This document shows, piece after piece, positions 3,763 through 44,104 of a stretch of DNA of 64,000 nucleotides. The first letter of the stretch is position 1; the number at the start of each line of letters is the position of its first letter. A program made the position numbers and the translations under genes. A model generated the notes under the pieces. That model was not told where the DNA came from, made no database searches, and worked only from the letters and a program-made list of their open reading frames with translations. The stretch comes from a virus: IMG/VR virus record IMGVR_UViG_3300025327_000022, positions 1 through 64,000 of that record; one strand, 5' to 3'.

Positions 3763-4715
3763 TTAAACAGCCGTCGCAGTTATGATCGTCCCATCGGACT
3801 CATCATTCACCTTCGAAAATAGAGGGGCAGTAGTCCAGGAATCAGCATCGATATCTGCGTCAGGTCGAAGAAATTGGACAACCCCAGGTTCTTCAGTTCC
3901 AGATGGTTGCAAGTCGAGATAAACTGTTGCAGCATCGGAGGCTTCAAGAATATCCGCTGACACTATTTGGAGACTGAGCAATATCTCTTGCGCATCAACA
4001 TATTCTGCTAATTCAGTCCCGCTTGCTTGAAGATCGGTAAGAACTTCAGCAGCATCAAAGGTAGTATATTCCTCAGTGCTACTGAATTGCAGATCAAGGT
4101 AAACTTCTTGCGTATCTATGAAATCAGCGATGTCCGTAGAAGTTGGAGAAAAGCCGAGCAAAACTTCAGCAGCGTCGTATTGCTGTCGCTCCTCAACAGA
4201 TTGTGCTTCGAGGTCAAGATAGGTTACGTCCGAATCTATGAACTCTGCGATATCAGTCGTGGAAGTCGTCAGATCAAGATAGATGGTGTCTGCGTCCTCA
4301 GTTGCACCCTGGGCATATTCATCCGTACCCGACGGCTGTAAATCAAAGTAGGTTTCTTGCGCTTCAGTAGCCTCTAATATGTCTGCGCTCGCAGGACTAA
4401 AAAGAAGCCCCACCGTTTGAGAATCCACAAACTCAGCAATGTCAACGCTAGAGGGAGCGAGACTAAGAGGTACGGTTTCCGAATCGACATATTCTGCAAT
4501 GTCTACTCCTGACGCCTGAAGGTCAAGATATACCTCCGCTGAATCATATTGCTGGCGTTCCTCATCTGTAGTGATGGCTTGCAAGTCAAGGTAGACTTCA
4601 GCGCTTTCAATAGCTTCGATAAGTTCAACACCGGATGCTTGAAGATCAAGATATATGGTCGCAGCATCGGTATATTCTGCGCCCGCCGCAGACTGAATCT
4701 GTGCCCCGCCGGGCA
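2060..4715 (-). repeat. protein-level tandem repeats (about 20-24 codons each)
   Basis: Two genes share dozens of degenerate units coding (D/E)AxTVYLDLxxSGxDIAEY(V/I). The same unit also appears at the end of the LamG protein near 7690-7860 (AEIYLDLQPSGVELAEYIDA). DNA identity between units is moderate, so this is an old expansion, not a recent slippage tract. Confidence 0.8.
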
Positions 4716-4740
4716 GAAGTGGGCCATAGAGCGGGTGCAT
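3763..4740 (-). CDS. repeat-rich tail/appendage protein, 325 aa
   Basis: Almost entirely made of the same 20-24-residue units as its downstream neighbour (for example EVYLDLQASGVDIAEYVDS). It ends with LRPDADIDADSWTTAPLFS and a few more residues, which look like the beginning of the LRPD beta-sandwich domain found complete at the start of the next protein; here it is cut short by a stop. The ATG overlaps the preceding stop by one base (TAATG). Probably acts together with the 600-residue protein; a split or duplicated ancestral gene is likely. Confidence 0.85.
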   Translation of the reverse strand: MHPLYGPLLPGGAQIQSAAGAEYTDAATIYLDLQASGVELIEAIESAEVYLDLQAITTDEERQQYDSAEVYLDLQASGVDIAEYVDSETVPLSLAPSSVDIAEFVDSQTVGLLFSPASADILEATEAQETYFDLQPSGTDEYAQGATEDADTIYLDLTTSTTDIAEFIDSDVTYLDLEAQSVEERQQYDAAEVLLGFSPTSTDIADFIDTQEVYLDLQFSSTEEYTTFDAAEVLTDLQASGTELAEYVDAQEILLSLQIVSADILEASDAATVYLDLQPSGTEEPGVVQFLRPDADIDADSWTTAPLFSKVNDESDGTIITATAV

Positions 4741-5087
4741 TAAGCTACCTTACGAATTGACCAATCGACCGTAATCGTGCCGCCCGTAAGGGCAGCCAGA
4801 GTTACGTCCCAACCGTGCAAAAGAATCATCGTTGGCGACACCCATACCGGGGTTGCCTGCGCACCCACGAGAATGAACTCCTCGATAATGCGCTGTGTCG
4901 AGGCCGAACCCACCTTCTCGTAAAAGCGGATCTGAAGTTGGTCACCTGCGACCATATCCGACACATCGAGAAAGACTTGATAGATGCCATCATCGGTTTG
5001 CACGTCCGGCCCGGCGGTGTCCGTCGTAAGCGACCACTCGGTCGTCGAGACTGCTTCTGAGCCCGCGAATGCCTCACTGATCGCCAC
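4740..5087 (-). CDS. tail-associated protein, 115 aa
   Basis: GTG start 6 bases after GAGGAGAAG. Begins MAISEAFAGSEAVSTTEWSL and ends TVDWSIRKVA, with a central VWVSPTMILLHGWDVTL. Small beta-rich proteins of this look recur next to repeat proteins in tail-fibre regions of uncultured phages, as I recall; no function is known to me. It sits between two other structural-type genes with almost no spacing. Confidence 0.8.
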   Translation of the reverse strand: MAISEAFAGSEAVSTTEWSLTTDTAGPDVQTDDGIYQVFLDVSDMVAGDQLQIRFYEKVGSASTQRIIEEFILVGAQATPVWVSPTMILLHGWDVTLAALTGGTITVDWSIRKVA

Positions 5088-35947: not shown

Positions 35948-35955
35948 GCCGAGAG

Positions 35956-36025
35956 CAGGCCGGTGCGCCGAGTAGGGTTACTTCTTCATCGGGACGAACA
36001 CCTTGCTCATCTAGTTCTCGGTTTG
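35956..36025 (+). ncRNA. Y RNA module 1, minimal
   Basis: Outer helix CAGGCCG/CGGTTTG (35956-35962 with 36019-36025, two G-U pairs), strand GUGCG at 35963, GGGUUACUUC at 35975-35984, return strand CCUUGCUCAUCUAGUUCU at 36001-36018, second helix GAGUA/UGCUC. Only 16 bases lie between the two halves, so it is the shared core with almost no effector domain. Ro60-binding RNA is inferred from the core and the nearby Ro60 gene. Confidence 0.65.
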
Positions 36026-36042
36026 CATTGATCTTTGACAAA

Positions 36043-36132
36043 TCTGAGCTGCGCTATCTAGGCGCTTCCATACCGAGAGGATGGTCGGAGTATTGCGTAT
36101 ACACAAAGGCATACTTTGCAGCGTAGCTCAGA
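36043..36132 (+). other. multibranched RNA-like structure between modules 1 and 2
   Basis: Closed by TCTGAGC/GCTCAGA. Inside are GCGC/GCGC with a 7-base loop, CCAT/ATGG, and AAAG/CTTT hairpins. It may be a separate RNA, a spacer fold in a common precursor, or a processing signal. Confidence 0.4.
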
Positions 36133-36156
36133 CCCTAGTGCCTTGAGGGGCACGTA

Positions 36157-36300
36157 CTGTGCAGGTGCGTAGGAATGGGTTACTTCTCATTGGTGAGAGA
36201 GGTCGCAGGTTCGAGTCCTGTCATGGTGTGGCACCGGCCCACCATGTAGCTCAGTTGGCAGAGCGCTTACGTTACCTTTTCCGCCTTGTCCTCTGCACAG
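36157..36300 (+). ncRNA. Y RNA module 2, tRNA-mimic
   Basis: Outer helix CTGTGCAG/CTGCACAG (36157-36164, 36293-36300); core strands at 36165-36186 and 36275-36292; second helix GGAA/TTCC. The insert is a tRNA in permuted order: linking stem GTGAG/CTTAC, T-arm GCAGG-TTCGAGT-CCTGT (36205-36221), acceptor CATGGTG/CACCATG closed by an 11-base loop, and D-arm GCTC-AGTTGGCA-GAGC (36249-36264). The anticodon stem continues into the Ro60-type stem. Known: bacterial YrlA-type Y RNAs carry such tRNA-like domains. Confidence 0.75.
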
Positions 36301-36309
36301 TTAAAGTTT

Positions 36310-36385
36310 GGAGTGTGCGTATGGTGTGCAGGGAGATCCTGCAACAGGTTGCGCCTTCGCGCCACGATGAAACAAAGCACACTCC
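36310..36385 (+). other. structured RNA-like element after module 2
   Basis: GGAGTGTG/CACACTCC closes two hairpins: TGCAGG/CCTGCA and GCGC/GCGC. A short reading frame begins inside its 3' part. Role unknown. Confidence 0.4.
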
Positions 36386-36501
36386 AAGAACTTGACAAAT
36401 TGAATGATGTACTGGCGACGAATACTCGCATCTCTAGCAGCCGTTGTCTAACTGAGATGTGGGAACGGCTCGGTCAGTACATCATTGAGTTTGTAACGTA
36501 G
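36367..36501 (+). CDS. possible 44-residue protein inside the RNA locus
   Basis: ATG 36367 codes MKQSTLQELDKLNDVLATNT and ends WERLGQYIIEFVT, a plausible helical protein, but there is no clear ribosome binding site and both ends overlap structured RNA. Confidence 0.35.
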   Translation: MKQSTLQELDKLNDVLATNTRISSSRCLTEMWERLGQYIIEFVT

Positions 36502-36605
36502 CGATGCGATGTTCGTGGGTTACTTCTCACCGCAGCACGTAGGTTAGAGAAACCTACAATCAGATTACATCTGACCGACCTTCGACAACTTGTTCTCGCT
36601 ACGTT
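36495..36605 (+). ncRNA. Y RNA module 3, non-tRNA insert
   Basis: Outer helix AACGTAGCG/CGCTACGTT (36495-36503, 36597-36605; one further pair possible). Core: AUGCG, GGGUUACUUC at 36517-36526, return strand CCUUCGACAACUUGUUCU at 36579-36596, second helix TGTTCG/CGACA with a bulge that explains one extra base. The insert holds two hairpins, GTAGGTT/AACCTAC and TCAGAT/ATCTGA, with no tRNA arms. Confidence 0.65.
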
Positions 36606-36612
36606 AGAATTT

Positions 36613-36759
36613 GATGCCGGTGCGATGAAGTGGGATACTTCGTACATTGGTTCGAATCCAATACCAGATTGCGGTCTGGTTGGCAGAGTGGCTTAATGCT
36701 ACGGGAATGCAAAAGTTCCCTATACGGGAAAATGCCTACTTCGCTTGGTTCTCGGCGTC
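36613..36759 (+). ncRNA. Y RNA module 4, class-II-like tRNA mimic
   Basis: Outer helix GATGCCG/CGGCGTC (36613-36619, 36753-36759); core GUGCG, GGGAUACUUC at 36632-36641, return strand at 36735-36752, second helix GAAGT/ACTTC. The insert in order: T-arm ATTGG-TTCGAAT-CCAAT, acceptor ACCAGA/TCTGGT closed by TTGCGG, a serine-type D-arm (GCA/TGC around GAGTGGCTTAA), an anticodon-like arm GGGAA/TTCCC with an 8-base loop TGCAAAAG. The open end lies where a long variable arm would be. Confidence 0.7.
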
Positions 36760-36766
36760 AATGAAC

Positions 36767-36856
36767 GTCTCCATCATGGGACGATAAATCCCTCTCAACT
36801 CAGTGGTCGGCGTGTGGGTATGACATCCCCGGACAAGCTGAGGGCGCGATGGAGAC
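36767..36856 (+). other. structured RNA-like element between modules 4 and 5
   Basis: Perfect 9-bp closing stem GTCTCCATC/GATGGAGAC, with GGGA/TCCC (7-base loop), CTCAG/CTGAG and GGG/CCC inside. It ends 2 bases before module 5. Unknown role. Confidence 0.45.
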
Positions 36857-36857
36857 T

Positions 36858-36989
36858 CAGTCAGGTGCGTAGATGTGGGTTACTTCATGGAGCAAGCAGT
36901 CGGTGTAAAAAGCCGGTTGCGATAGGGTTCAAATCCCGCAGTTGAAAAAATACTGCACTTGTTACCTTCGTCGCCTAGTTCTCTGACTG
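36858..36989 (+). ncRNA. Y RNA module 5, tRNA-like insert
   Basis: Outer helix CAGTCAG/CTGACTG (36858-36864, 36983-36989); core GUGCG, GGGUUACUUC at 36877-36886, return strand CCUUCGUCGCCUAGUUCU at 36965-36982, second helix GATG/CGTC. The insert has a T-loop-like GGG-TTCAAAT-CCC, a GCAGT/ACTGC stem, a hairpin CGGT/GCCG with loop GTAAAAA, and CAAG/CTTG, which can be drawn as a permuted tRNA opened in the D-loop or as a three-way junction. Confidence 0.65.
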
Positions 36990-37054
36990 ATTAATTCCAA
37001 GTTATAGAAAGGGGTGATCGCATGCGGAATCCAACCTAATAGGGAGGGATCTGC

Positions 37055-37662: not shown

Positions 37663-39213
37663 ATGCCTAAGTTCTCGGGAGGAAAGACGCGCCCTAACGT
37701 GACTTCTCCGATGCGAACCACCGGAGTACAGGGTACTACGTATGAAGGTGGCCTTGGTTTTGAGCGTGATGCAAAGACAGAACTTTTCCTGCTTGCGGTC
37801 ACGAACATGGTCAAGGAAGATACTTTCTACGAGGCCGCTAGTGAGCGCGACAAGCGGTTCAAGGATCTAGCGCATACCGTGGTTGCGGAGGATTCTGCAT
37901 GGGTACGCGAGTTCATTCCATACCTTCGCAACACGATGCAGATGCGCTCCGCATCGATCGTGCTCGCTGCACATTACGTGCATGCGAAGGGAGAGAAGTC
38001 TCGTCAGGTTGTTGATTCCGCAATGTCGCGAGCGGACGAGCCCGCCGAGATCCTTGCGTATTGGGCGCAGGAGTATGGAAAGAACTTTCCACAGCCTCTA
38101 AAGCGTGGAGTCGCTGATGCTGTGGAACGGTTGTATACGGAGCGCTCGGCACTGAAGTATGATGGACAGTCTCGCGCATGGCGCATGGGCGATGTAATCG
38201 ACCTTGTGCATCCTAAGCCATTGACTGCTGAGCAGTCTGCTCTATATCGCTACCTACTCGATACGCGGCACAAGCGCGAATCTACGAATACTCTTGATCT
38301 ACCGCTTATTCGTGCTTGGCAGTTTGCGAATGACATCCCTGTCGAACTGCGACGAGCCCGGATGCTAACACACGGCATCCCACAGGGGATGACGTGGGAG
38401 TCGCTTTCGGGATGGTTGCAGGGGCCGATGGACGCCGAGGCATGGGAAACCGTAATCCCGCAGATGGGATATATGGCGCTTCTGCGCAATCTGCGCAACT
38501 TCGAGGATGCTGGAATCTCGAAGGAAACGGTCGAGTACATTCATGCAAAGATCAGCGATCCTGATGAAGTTGCAAAGTCTCGACAGTTTCCAATTCGCTT
38601 CTATTCCGCATGGAAGGCTACTGATTCCTTGCTATGGAGCCGAGAATTAGAGTATGCGCTCGATCATTCGGTAAGTAACGTGCCGAAGCTTGAAGGTCGA
38701 ACGCTCATCCTAGTAGACGTTTCTGGCTCGATGTATGATCGCATGTCTTCGCGGTCTACTGTGGATAGGTGGGAGCTTGCTGCTGTCTTCGGGGCAGCGC
38801 TAGCAAAGGCTAACCGTGGAAGCTCCGATCTTGTAGCGTTTTCGACTGATAGCTATCCAATTGATCCTGCACGCTCCATTTTGCAAACCGTCGATAAGAT
38901 TCGAGGGATTGGTGGCGGCGGCACAGATACATGGGGAGCCTTCAACCAGCACTACAATGACCATGACCGTACTATTATCCTTACCGATGAGCAGGCACAT
39001 CCTGGCAACATTCTTAGGGGGCAGGATAGGAGCGCACCGATCTATACCTTCAACCTTGCTGGATACAAGATGGCACACTCCGAACAGGGTGAGAAGGGTA
39101 GCTACGTATTCGGTGGTCTGACGGATGCAGGGTTCGTGCTTCTAAAGGCGATTGACGAGCTACAGCACGGCCGCTGGCCCTGGGAGCTTGACAGCGGCCC
39201 TGAGCGAGCGTAA
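37663..39213 (+). CDS. rsr: Ro60/Rsr-like TROVE protein, 516 aa
   Basis: Ring-shaped RNA-binding protein; in bacteria it binds Y RNAs and is tied to RNA decay and quality control. Residues 1-340 are the helical TROVE ring (RFKDLAHTVVAEDSAWVREF, LPLIRAWQFANDIPVELRRA). Residues 345-510 are a von Willebrand A domain with an intact metal site: DVSGSM near 351, a GGTDTW loop near 423 and ILTDE near 443. AGGAGAGGAGTAG precedes the ATG. The five RNA modules directly upstream are its likely partners. It ends at a strong terminator, so this is a self-contained unit. Confidence 0.95.
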   Translation: MPKFSGGKTRPNVTSPMRTTGVQGTTYEGGLGFERDAKTELFLLAVTNMVKEDTFYEAASERDKRFKDLAHTVVAEDSAWVREFIPYLRNTMQMRSASIVLAAHYVHAKGEKSRQVVDSAMSRADEPAEILAYWAQEYGKNFPQPLKRGVADAVERLYTERSALKYDGQSRAWRMGDVIDLVHPKPLTAEQSALYRYLLDTRHKRESTNTLDLPLIRAWQFANDIPVELRRARMLTHGIPQGMTWESLSGWLQGPMDAEAWETVIPQMGYMALLRNLRNFEDAGISKETVEYIHAKISDPDEVAKSRQFPIRFYSAWKATDSLLWSRELEYALDHSVSNVPKLEGRTLILVDVSGSMYDRMSSRSTVDRWELAAVFGAALAKANRGSSDLVAFSTDSYPIDPARSILQTVDKIRGIGGGGTDTWGAFNQHYNDHDRTIILTDEQAHPGNILRGQDRSAPIYTFNLAGYKMAHSEQGEKGSYVFGGLTDAGFVLLKAIDELQHGRWPWELDSGPERA

Positions 39214-39304: not shown

Positions 39305-39315
39305 CCCCCTTTACA

Positions 39316-39415
39316 GGATTGTATTGAAGCTATCTACTGTGGATTAACCTATCGTAACGGGCTATGCTGCCTTGTATCCAGTGACCCCGTGCAGTAGATA
39401 GCTTCAATACAATCC
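39316..39415. ncRNA. 24-bp perfect inverted repeat with 52-base loop
   Basis: The 24 bases from 39316 (GGATTGTATTGAAGC...) are the exact reverse complement of 39392-39415. The loop contains TAACGGGCTATG, close to a TAACGGGCTATAG just before the Y RNA array at 35797. A transcript would be a long RNA hairpin: a stable ncRNA, an RNase III site, or recombination-derived palindrome. Confidence 0.5.
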
Positions 39416-39474
39416 CGTACCCTCATCTTTTCTATGAGGAGGTAATGTAATCAACTAGGAGGTTTACTCTTAGC

Positions 39475-42850: not shown

Positions 42851-43365
42851 AGACCAAGCTTAAACTCTCTCTTAGATCAGACTTCGAATTGCTGCCGATC
42901 GGTACGAGAGTAAGCTATCATCATCGCGCCGGTATTGCTCGCTTCAAGAAGCAAACTAACTACGAGGACGAGCGCAAGGGCTGGATACTTGTCGAGGGTA
43001 CGCTGCCTGGCCCCGAGTTAGTCAAAGCGGACAGTGATCCAGTATGGATCGATGGCTACAACTGGAATCGTGTCAAGGATATGTTCTTCGATTGGCCGCA
43101 AGCGCGGACACCGTACACTTCACTTGAGAAAGTTAACAAAACGATCATGGTATGGCCCGAAGATGGTTTTGGCTGGATCATCGGAATTAAGCGCAAATCA
43201 ATCGGAGTTTCATCACCGGGGTATGCTAGGGGACCAGAGTACGAATCTGGCTATCACTCCACGCTCATGTATGTCGATCTGTACGTTGTTAAGCCGTGGT
43301 ACGAGGGTGTTGACTACGTTCTTTGCCCCCTGTGGGCGGTAAAGGAGGTCAAAGATGACGAGTAA
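42847..43365 (+). CDS. hypothetical protein, 172 aa
   Basis: ATGA overlap. Beta-rich with many aromatics (GTRVSYHHRAGIARFKKQ, GYNWNRVKDMFFDWPQ). Unknown. Confidence 0.7.
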   Translation: MKTKLKLSLRSDFELLPIGTRVSYHHRAGIARFKKQTNYEDERKGWILVEGTLPGPELVKADSDPVWIDGYNWNRVKDMFFDWPQARTPYTSLEKVNKTIMVWPEDGFGWIIGIKRKSIGVSSPGYARGPEYESGYHSTLMYVDLYVVKPWYEGVDYVLCPLWAVKEVKDDE

Positions 43366-44104
43366 GAAGATCGCTGAGAAGAATCTCATAATGCTAGGCA
43401 TAGTCGGCTCGACTTTGCATGGCTTAAACGTGCTTGGACAGGACGATCACGATGAGATGGGGATTTGCATCGAACCGCCCGAATACGTGATAGGGCTTAA
43501 ACAATTCGAACAGCACGTATTCCGTACTAAGCCTGAAGGAATAAGGAGCGAAGCTGGAGATACAGACCGTACTATCTACAGTCTTCGCAAATATGTACGA
43601 CTCGCACTTAAAGGCAATCCTACAGTACAGCTTCTTCTTTATCACCCAACTCCCAATCCGATTCTGCCTCCTGCAATTGAACTCCAAAGAAACGCATGGA
43701 GATTCATTTCGCGCAGAGCAGGTCAGGCTTTTCTTGGTTATCTCGTTGCGCAAAAACAACGCCTGCTTGGCGAGCGTGGTCAGATGGATATACACCGCCC
43801 TGAGTTAGTTGAGAAATACGGTTACGACACTAAGTACGCAATGCATATGCTTAGGCTTGGCTATCAAGGTGTTGAGCTGCTTGAAAACCGACTAATCTCG
43901 CTGCCGATGCGCGAACCGGATCGCAAATTCATCTACGATGTTCGCTGTGGGAAGCATGAATTGGACACGGTGTTTACTAGGACAGGGCAGCTAGAGAAAG
44001 ACATCGAGGATTTGCTAGATACTGTGCCCTCTGAGCCAGATTACGAATGGGCAAATTCCTATCTCATTCGGACATATCTAGAATGGTGGAATATCTATGA
44101 ATGA
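43355..44104 (+). CDS. predicted nucleotidyltransferase (COG3541/RlaP-like), 249 aa
   Basis: GIVGSTLHGLNVLGQDDHDEMG carries the polymerase-beta-superfamily G-S...G...D.D signature; the following parts (YSLRKYVRLALKGNPTVQLL, GYDTKYAMHMLRLGYQGVEL) are the typical helical tail. Known: these enzymes add nucleotides to unknown acceptors, in some cases linked to RNA ligases. An RNA-end role would suit this genome but is inference. Confidence 0.85.
   Translation: MTSKKIAEKNLIMLGIVGSTLHGLNVLGQDDHDEMGICIEPPEYVIGLKQFEQHVFRTKPEGIRSEAGDTDRTIYSLRKYVRLALKGNPTVQLLLYHPTPNPILPPAIELQRNAWRFISRRAGQAFLGYLVAQKQRLLGERGQMDIHRPELVEKYGYDTKYAMHMLRLGYQGVELLENRLISLPMREPDRKFIYDVRCGKHELDTVFTRTGQLEKDIEDLLDTVPSEPDYEWANSYLIRTYLEWWNIYE

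Follow-up and report, generated by a model that had tools for sequence, protein, structure and literature searches.

Why should one Ro60 protein be accompanied by several Y RNAs, and what do phages gain from carrying Ro60? Both questions could be approached at a compact locus in the IMG/VR virus record IMGVR_UViG_3300025327_000022, which comprises 79,214 bases, of which bases 1-64,000 are hereafter the window, and which stems from a virus whose host is probably an actinobacterium. Y RNAs in phages are already known. At this locus, a single Ro60 gene is accompanied by five natural Y RNAs with differing effectors (modules M1 to M5), making effector function testable by module deletion or exchange in one background. 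A preliminary description of this DNA had proposed such an array upstream of Ro60; the array is indeed on the same strand and upstream, but approximately 670 nt that hold small open reading frames separate its end (36990) from the start of the gene (37663), and it therefore does not lie directly 5' of Ro60.

The gene downstream of the array encodes Ro60

The open reading frame at 37663-39213 is Ro60, the name it had already been given. Its product matches the TROVE family PF05731 (3e-17) with 63.4 bits against a curated cut-off of 23, and the vWA_Ro60 family PF25045 with 22.3 bits (E 1.4e-4), which is below the cut-off of 27.7. Residues D352, S354 and S356 of the vWA domain, a DxSxS motif that we take to be the metal ion-dependent adhesion site (MIDAS), are invariant in both alignments. 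A profile built from 11 phage relatives and compared with the PDB matches Deinococcus radiodurans Rsr, two vertebrate Ro60s and two TROVE structures. An AlphaFold model of the protein (mean pLDDT 84.4) was used for a Foldseek search in which the first 13 matches are all TROVE/Ro60 structures, the fold matching Ro60 over the whole length. These include the Ro60 of Thermus phage phiLo (PDB 9l5y), a phage Ro60 of the same fold with 25% identity in the Foldseek alignment, this comparison being one of protein alone. By tblastn, relatives of the gene are present in 91 of 50,697 phage records.

Five modules share a conserved core and covarying stems

Across the whole 79,214-base record, the core pattern TGCGN(6-9)GGGWTACTTC occurs five times on the forward strand and not at all on the reverse strand or in a reversed control, and all five copies fall in the array, an occurrence that is not due to chance (with a fixed 8-nt gap, the pattern matches M3 only). 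The two-strand core reported in the preliminary description is present five times between 35955 and 36990 on the + strand, together with all of its outer helices, although some finer points required amendment: the left strand given as GUGCG is AUGCG in M3, the motif that follows it is GGGAUACUUC in M4 instead of the claimed GGGUUACUUC, and the inner helix of M3 requires a bulge. The right strand measures 18 nt in all five modules, as claimed, when counted from CC to the CT before the outer helix. It is also found in all six modules of L005, the closest distinct relative having six cores, where every module has a match that abuts a paired outer helix, and its length was built into the search pattern.

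The comparison set consists of 87 Ro60 loci from viruses, counting the window, and 80 from bacterial genomes. In a first pairing test, which searched freely for the partner strand, the null was inflated (its mean was 6.9, and 8.5 was observed), and anchored and sequence-selected tests therefore took its place. Anchored outer stems pair at seven of seven positions in every one of the five window modules and the six L005 modules. Within the window clade, the same is true of 23 of 39 candidate modules, compared to 3.0% with swapped flanks, and across all 286 candidates (from 127 of the 167 loci, collected with a loose regular expression that also admits false ones) 155 pair fully at anchored sites, compared to 5.5%; 66 candidates are without a stem of at least six pairs. 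Right strands picked by sequence alone were available for 43 of 253 left cores (42 distinct). Thirty of these 42 distinct modules pair at six or seven of seven positions, compared to a mean of 3.9 and a maximum of 9 in 200 permutations. In the same set, 82% of outer-stem positions are paired versus 50% when permuted (maximum 57%), and the inner helix is paired at 78% of positions versus 52% (maximum 62%).

Comparison of the window with L005 reveals pairs that have changed on both sides, namely five of seven in the outer helix of M5, three of nine in that of M2 and one of nine in that of M3, as well as four of seven in the M2 acceptor and three of six in the M4 acceptor. The outer helices of M1 and M4 contain no such changes, and those of M3 and M4 have one broken pair each.

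The modules belong to a lineage-wide actinobacterial Y RNA type

A covariance model, R2, was built from 24 Y RNA modules on bacterial genome contigs, among which plasmid or prophage stretches are possible; these modules come from 24 of the 80 genome loci and were chosen from 52 in which the stem is confirmed and a tRNA-like domain is present. Its alignment contains 34 pairs (RNAalifold), 23 of which show at least one double change. R2 was trained on the RNAs of other organisms, and its E-values are rough owing to short calibration. It recovers all five window modules (Table 1), in agreement with the five-member family proposed previously. M1, M2, M4 and M5 are reported in a default search of the 64-kb window, in which the sole other row at E<=1 is the second tRNA (0.33). 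M3 is recovered from 1.3 kb with filters off, where nothing beyond the five modules scores better than E 1.3. In each module the two ends pair to form a basal stem that contains a conserved internal loop, and the array is encoded beside a Ro60 gene. The binding stem of Y RNAs reportedly has the consensus GNCGAAN(0-1)G, put forward by Chen in 2014.

Among the YrlA-type families of Rfam, to which the preliminary description had pointed, YrlA (RF02553) does match M2 at 36198-36267, but its score of 35 bits (E 2.4e-5) is below the gathering score of 69. At gathering, this family has no match in the window, in 10 plus 14 further viral loci or in nine genome loci; in L005 its score is 33.1 bits. The modules are a lineage-wide actinobacterial Y RNA type that current annotation misses: in the loci tested, Rfam YrlA gives no match at threshold, and some modules carry tRNA or protein labels in deposited phage records.

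Effector domains differ, and that of M2 is a permuted tRNA mimic

According to the review PMC8394870, YrlA consists of a basal stem together with arms of the D, T and acceptor-like kinds, binds Rsr and PNPase and is modified by DusA and TruB. Like the Salmonella-type YrlA, M2 is linked to Ro60 and has a T-arm, a closed acceptor (7 bp) and a D-arm in this order; unlike it, M2 matches only positions 24-84 of the 114 in the Rfam model, leaving the ends unmatched, and is one of several RNAs at its locus. As a tRNA mimic M2 is circularly permuted, and because a loop closes its acceptor stem it should not be chargeable.

We applied a strict mimic test, defined as a T-arm and then a 7-nt strand that pairs with a strand two bases before a D-arm. 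Of the 286 candidates, 118 are full permuted mimics, 64 have the T-arm alone and 104 have neither, compared to one full mimic and 12 T-arms alone among 375 stretches of 150 nt taken at random from these loci, in which tRNA genes were allowed. In M4, a T-arm is detected and the full test is failed; by eye, this module has a closed acceptor of 6 bp and, with a 3-bp stem in the style of Ser/Leu tRNAs, a D-arm-like element. M5 carries a T-loop-like hairpin with three pairs that fails the T-arm test, but its L005 counterpart passes. We read M4 and M5 as tRNA mimics that are incomplete or have diverged, and the strict test finds no tRNA-like part in M1 and M3. Both the R2 matches and this geometry test bear out the earlier claim that the effector domain differs among the five modules.

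The modules might be taken for tRNA genes from a phage tRNA cluster that have decayed or been scrambled, and it is true that some relatives are located among tRNA genes, that some modules are labelled tRNA in deposits and that a single genome Y RNA scores just over threshold with the tRNA model of Rfam. Nonetheless, the arms run from T-arm to acceptor to D-arm, the closed acceptor is preserved via double changes, the flanking core is conserved and ARAGORN calls no tRNAs in the array. Covariation of the permuted order, as seen here, contradicts decay, and we regard this explanation as extremely improbable.

An anticodon-arm pattern (5-bp stem, 7-nt loop) matches 89 of 220 stem-confirmed modules, and in 15 of these the loop is not TTCRA. 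By eye, three of the 15 are T-loop variants, seven close a GC-rich stem and five are left. Shuffles lead one to expect 1.4, which five of 220 modules exceed by little; anticodon-arm mimicry was therefore dropped as a family feature and none is claimed. This result bears on the idea that the Y RNAs serve mainly as tRNA decoys for host nucleases or tRNA enzymes and so shield phage translation, with Ro60 merely stabilising them. In PMC7790460, competition of YrlA with an anticodon nuclease is suggested as a possibility. Retention of D, T and acceptor arms in M2-type mimics would suit decoys, as would the gene at 43355-44104 for RlaP, a family of the RNA repair pathway. However, canonical anticodon arms are no family feature, M1 and M3 fail the strict mimic test, and RlaP is common in phages irrespective of Ro60 (469 records), and we judge a predominant decoy role to be unlikely.

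Several Y RNAs may equip one ring protein with different partners

The account that we consider probable, with appreciable room for doubt, is that a single Ro60 of the phage would form several ribonucleoproteins with the five Y RNAs through basal-stem binding, ring gating and partner tethering. The two ends of each Y RNA are predicted to form a basal stem whose conserved internal loop (RUGCG on the left, approximately GUUCU on the right) is likely the part bound by Ro60, and the effectors of M1 and M3 would be plain hairpins. If the systems of Deinococcus and Salmonella are a guide, the Y RNAs, once expressed, may gate the Ro60 ring, and they may tether a partner that recognises tRNA-like RNA, for example PNPase. 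The ring protein could in this manner assemble with different partners or substrates during infection, presumably to the advantage of the phage. The Rsr-Y RNA-PNPase complex of D. radiodurans (RYPER) likewise combines a Ro60 orthologue (2nvo, which was matched here) with a Y RNA, but its PNPase link belongs to Deinococcus and would extend to the phage by analogy only; few Y RNAs are known in D. radiodurans, compared to five in the phage.

Several observations weigh against this account. M3 is unreported at E<=1 in the default R2 search of the 64-kb window, M2 alone among the five window modules passes the strict mimic test, promoter signals in the region (one found versus 1.9 expected) include none above chance, and tethering of PNPase draws on other organisms. 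It is also conceivable, but rather unlikely, that the locus is a combinatorial system in which the Y RNAs would imitate tRNA classes or parts and aim the ring at several tRNA-handling host enzymes in opposition to tRNA-cleaving immunity, with X RNAs, the structured RNAs found between the modules, included. M2 would then represent class I tRNA, M4 the Ser/Leu-type D-arm and M5 the T-arm half.

Ro60-linked Y RNAs are widespread, and viral arrays can be large

At E<=1e-4, R2 matches are present in 79 of the 80 genome loci, L130 being the exception, and in 84 of the 86 viral loci other than the window. Of the 56 genome loci outside the training set, 55 have a match. The two viral misses, L047 and L091, contain just 69 and 2 bases before the gene. 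Matches are always on the Ro60 strand. Two tRNA-gene-like matches (L009:2126-2206 and L163:704-783, at model positions 31-112 and 33-112) were left out of the recount, and more matches of this kind appear at E<=0.01. The viral set includes near-duplicates (L055/L056, L066/L067 and L073/L077), and two IMG/VR contigs are apparently identical to genome contigs (L039/L124 and L036/L115).

The genome loci, which derive from Streptomyces, Amycolatopsis, Nonomuraea and others, share both the covariance model and the core with the window, but differ from it in number: one, two, three and four matches occur in 11, 47, 17 and 4 of them, respectively, whereas the window has five. Viral loci with one to six matches number 14, 42, 16, 7, 4 and 1. 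At least one strict RTGCG core is found in 59 of 87 viral loci and in 63 of 80 from genomes; duplicate modules were collapsed, such that duplicate contigs count as none. Core counts are lower bounds, as comparison with the R2 numbers shows. Four to eight strict cores are present in 16 of the 87 viral loci (five in the window, six in L005 and eight in L018), indicating that the family is wider than one phage; one genome locus has four and eight have three. Actinobacterial genome loci (L095-L174) often hold one long tRNA-like Y RNA and one short form of about 72 nt that resembles M1.

In most loci the modules lie 5' of Ro60 on the same strand, as would be expected if they were 5' leader elements through which Ro60, by binding its own leader, regulates its synthesis, rather than free RNAs. 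Arrays nonetheless lie 3' of Ro60 in L072, L087 and most of L010, the distance between the window array and its gene, with its small open reading frames, fits a leader poorly, and five copies with tRNA-like domains would be unneeded for such a purpose. We therefore consider leader regulation quite improbable.

Some deposited phage records mislabel Y modules as tRNAs (L008:3769-3843 as Arg, L009:3774-3847 as Ser, L013:3632-3703 as Arg and L014:3745-3835 as Pro) or as proteins, as in Gordonia phage Neville, where the modules at L011:3439-3849 are annotated as hypothetical proteins gp88-gp90. The genome Y RNA that the Rfam tRNA model matches is at L117:3816-3887 (30.1 bits).

Table 1. Structured RNAs and the Ro60 gene in the window (z, fold z; R2, covariance model score)
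Feature	Position	Strand	Evidence
M1, Y RNA module, short form, without tRNA-like domain	35955..36026	+	R2 32.4 bits, E 5.6e-6; z -3.0
X1, other structured RNA, between M1 and M2	36043..36132	+	13-nt arms; z -3.8
M2, Y RNA module, permuted tRNA mimic (YrlA order)	36157..36300	+	R2 106.5 bits, E 1.2e-23; z -3.2
X2, RNA apparently of an unnamed phage family	36308..36387	+	perfect 11-bp outer stem; z -4.3
X3, other structured RNA, between X2 and M3	36403..36486	+	arms; z -4.4
M3, Y RNA module, two-hairpin effector	36496..36604	+	R2 22.9 bits, E 2.1e-5 (1.3 kb, filters off); z -4.1
M4, Y RNA module: T-arm, closed acceptor, D-arm-like element, extra hairpin	36612..36760	+	R2 45.8 bits, E 3.7e-9; z -2.5
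X4, possible structured RNA, between M4 and M5	36767..36856	+	perfect 9-bp arms; z only -1.8
M5, Y RNA module: hairpin, degenerate T-arm-like hairpin, closed stem	36857..36990	+	R2 43.2 bits, E 1.5e-8; z -2.5
Ro60 (TROVE plus vWA), 516 aa	37663..39213	+	PF05731, PDB profile, AlphaFold and Foldseek

Other structured RNAs are interleaved with the Y RNAs

The inventory of five Y RNAs in the preliminary description stands, but it overlooked the further structured RNAs X1 to X4 between them (Table 1), whose closing arms measure 9 to 25 nt. These were rejected as additional Y RNAs given R2 E-values of 1.3 or worse, and their comparison with Rfam at E<=10 returned chance-level rows only. L005 holds an X1 at the syntenic position (z -5.5), whose outer stem is different yet paired, with eight of 13 pairs changed on both sides. 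Neither X3 (copies of this phage excluded) nor X4 has a relative at E<=0.05 in the Ro60 loci searched.

X2 is apparently a member of an unnamed phage RNA family. Exact matches to its 23-nt core occur in 24 IMG/VR stretches, of which three are copies of this phage and one is the L005 contig, and a relaxed form occurs in 44. The layout (36308-36387; L175-L198 and L204-L223) consists of a closing stem, ATGGTG, a TGCRGG-GAGAN-CCYGCA hairpin, ACA, a variable hairpin and ATGAAACA. We read 42 stretches: 41 have GAGAN as the hairpin loop, 31 have AAACAAA downstream, and at one stem position 37 have an A-T pair, four a G-C pair and one no pair. Outer stems of at least seven pairs occur in 59%, a moderate excess over the 30% obtained with shuffled partners (22 distinct). 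In L005, the fold z of X2 is only -1.3, for a stretch that lacked part of the 3' arm. Beyond its two source sequences, a model of X2 matches only L055 among 86 other loci and the window, and does so weakly (E 0.0038), and none of the 80 genome loci gives a match at E<=1. In the 14 loci scanned with Rfam, 13 of them with X2, all matches at gathering are tRNAs; tRNA-Arg(tct) adjoins X2 in five of 34 loci, and no constant neighbour gene was evident in 15 loci judged by open reading frames without a family search.

Structured RNAs of other kinds occur in related arrays. In L005, an Rfam manA RNA (RF01745) lies at 4680-4856, between M4 and the last Y RNA, with 57.4 bits versus a gathering score of 55.2; PMC2864571 describes manA RNA from marine metagenomes and cyanophages. 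In L018, the eight Y cores are followed at 1590-2300 by long stretches holding the repeated motifs GGGCAGAT, GAGCCTA and TAATCGAGATG, which by eye resemble two large structured RNAs and have no Rfam match at gathering.

Features downstream of Ro60

RlaP, which belongs to a polymerase beta family of the RNA repair pathway (PF10127, 6.8e-24), is encoded approximately 4 kb 3' of Ro60. RlaP and Ro60 occur together in 12 of 30 records, comprising all seven named complete phage genomes and five of 23 IMG/VR records, but because RlaP is frequent in phages, mostly those of Mycobacterium and Gordonia, this co-occurrence was not used as evidence. Shortly 3' of the Ro60 gene, a GC-rich hairpin precedes a 28-nt inverted repeat at 39312-39419 with 96% identity (BLAST).
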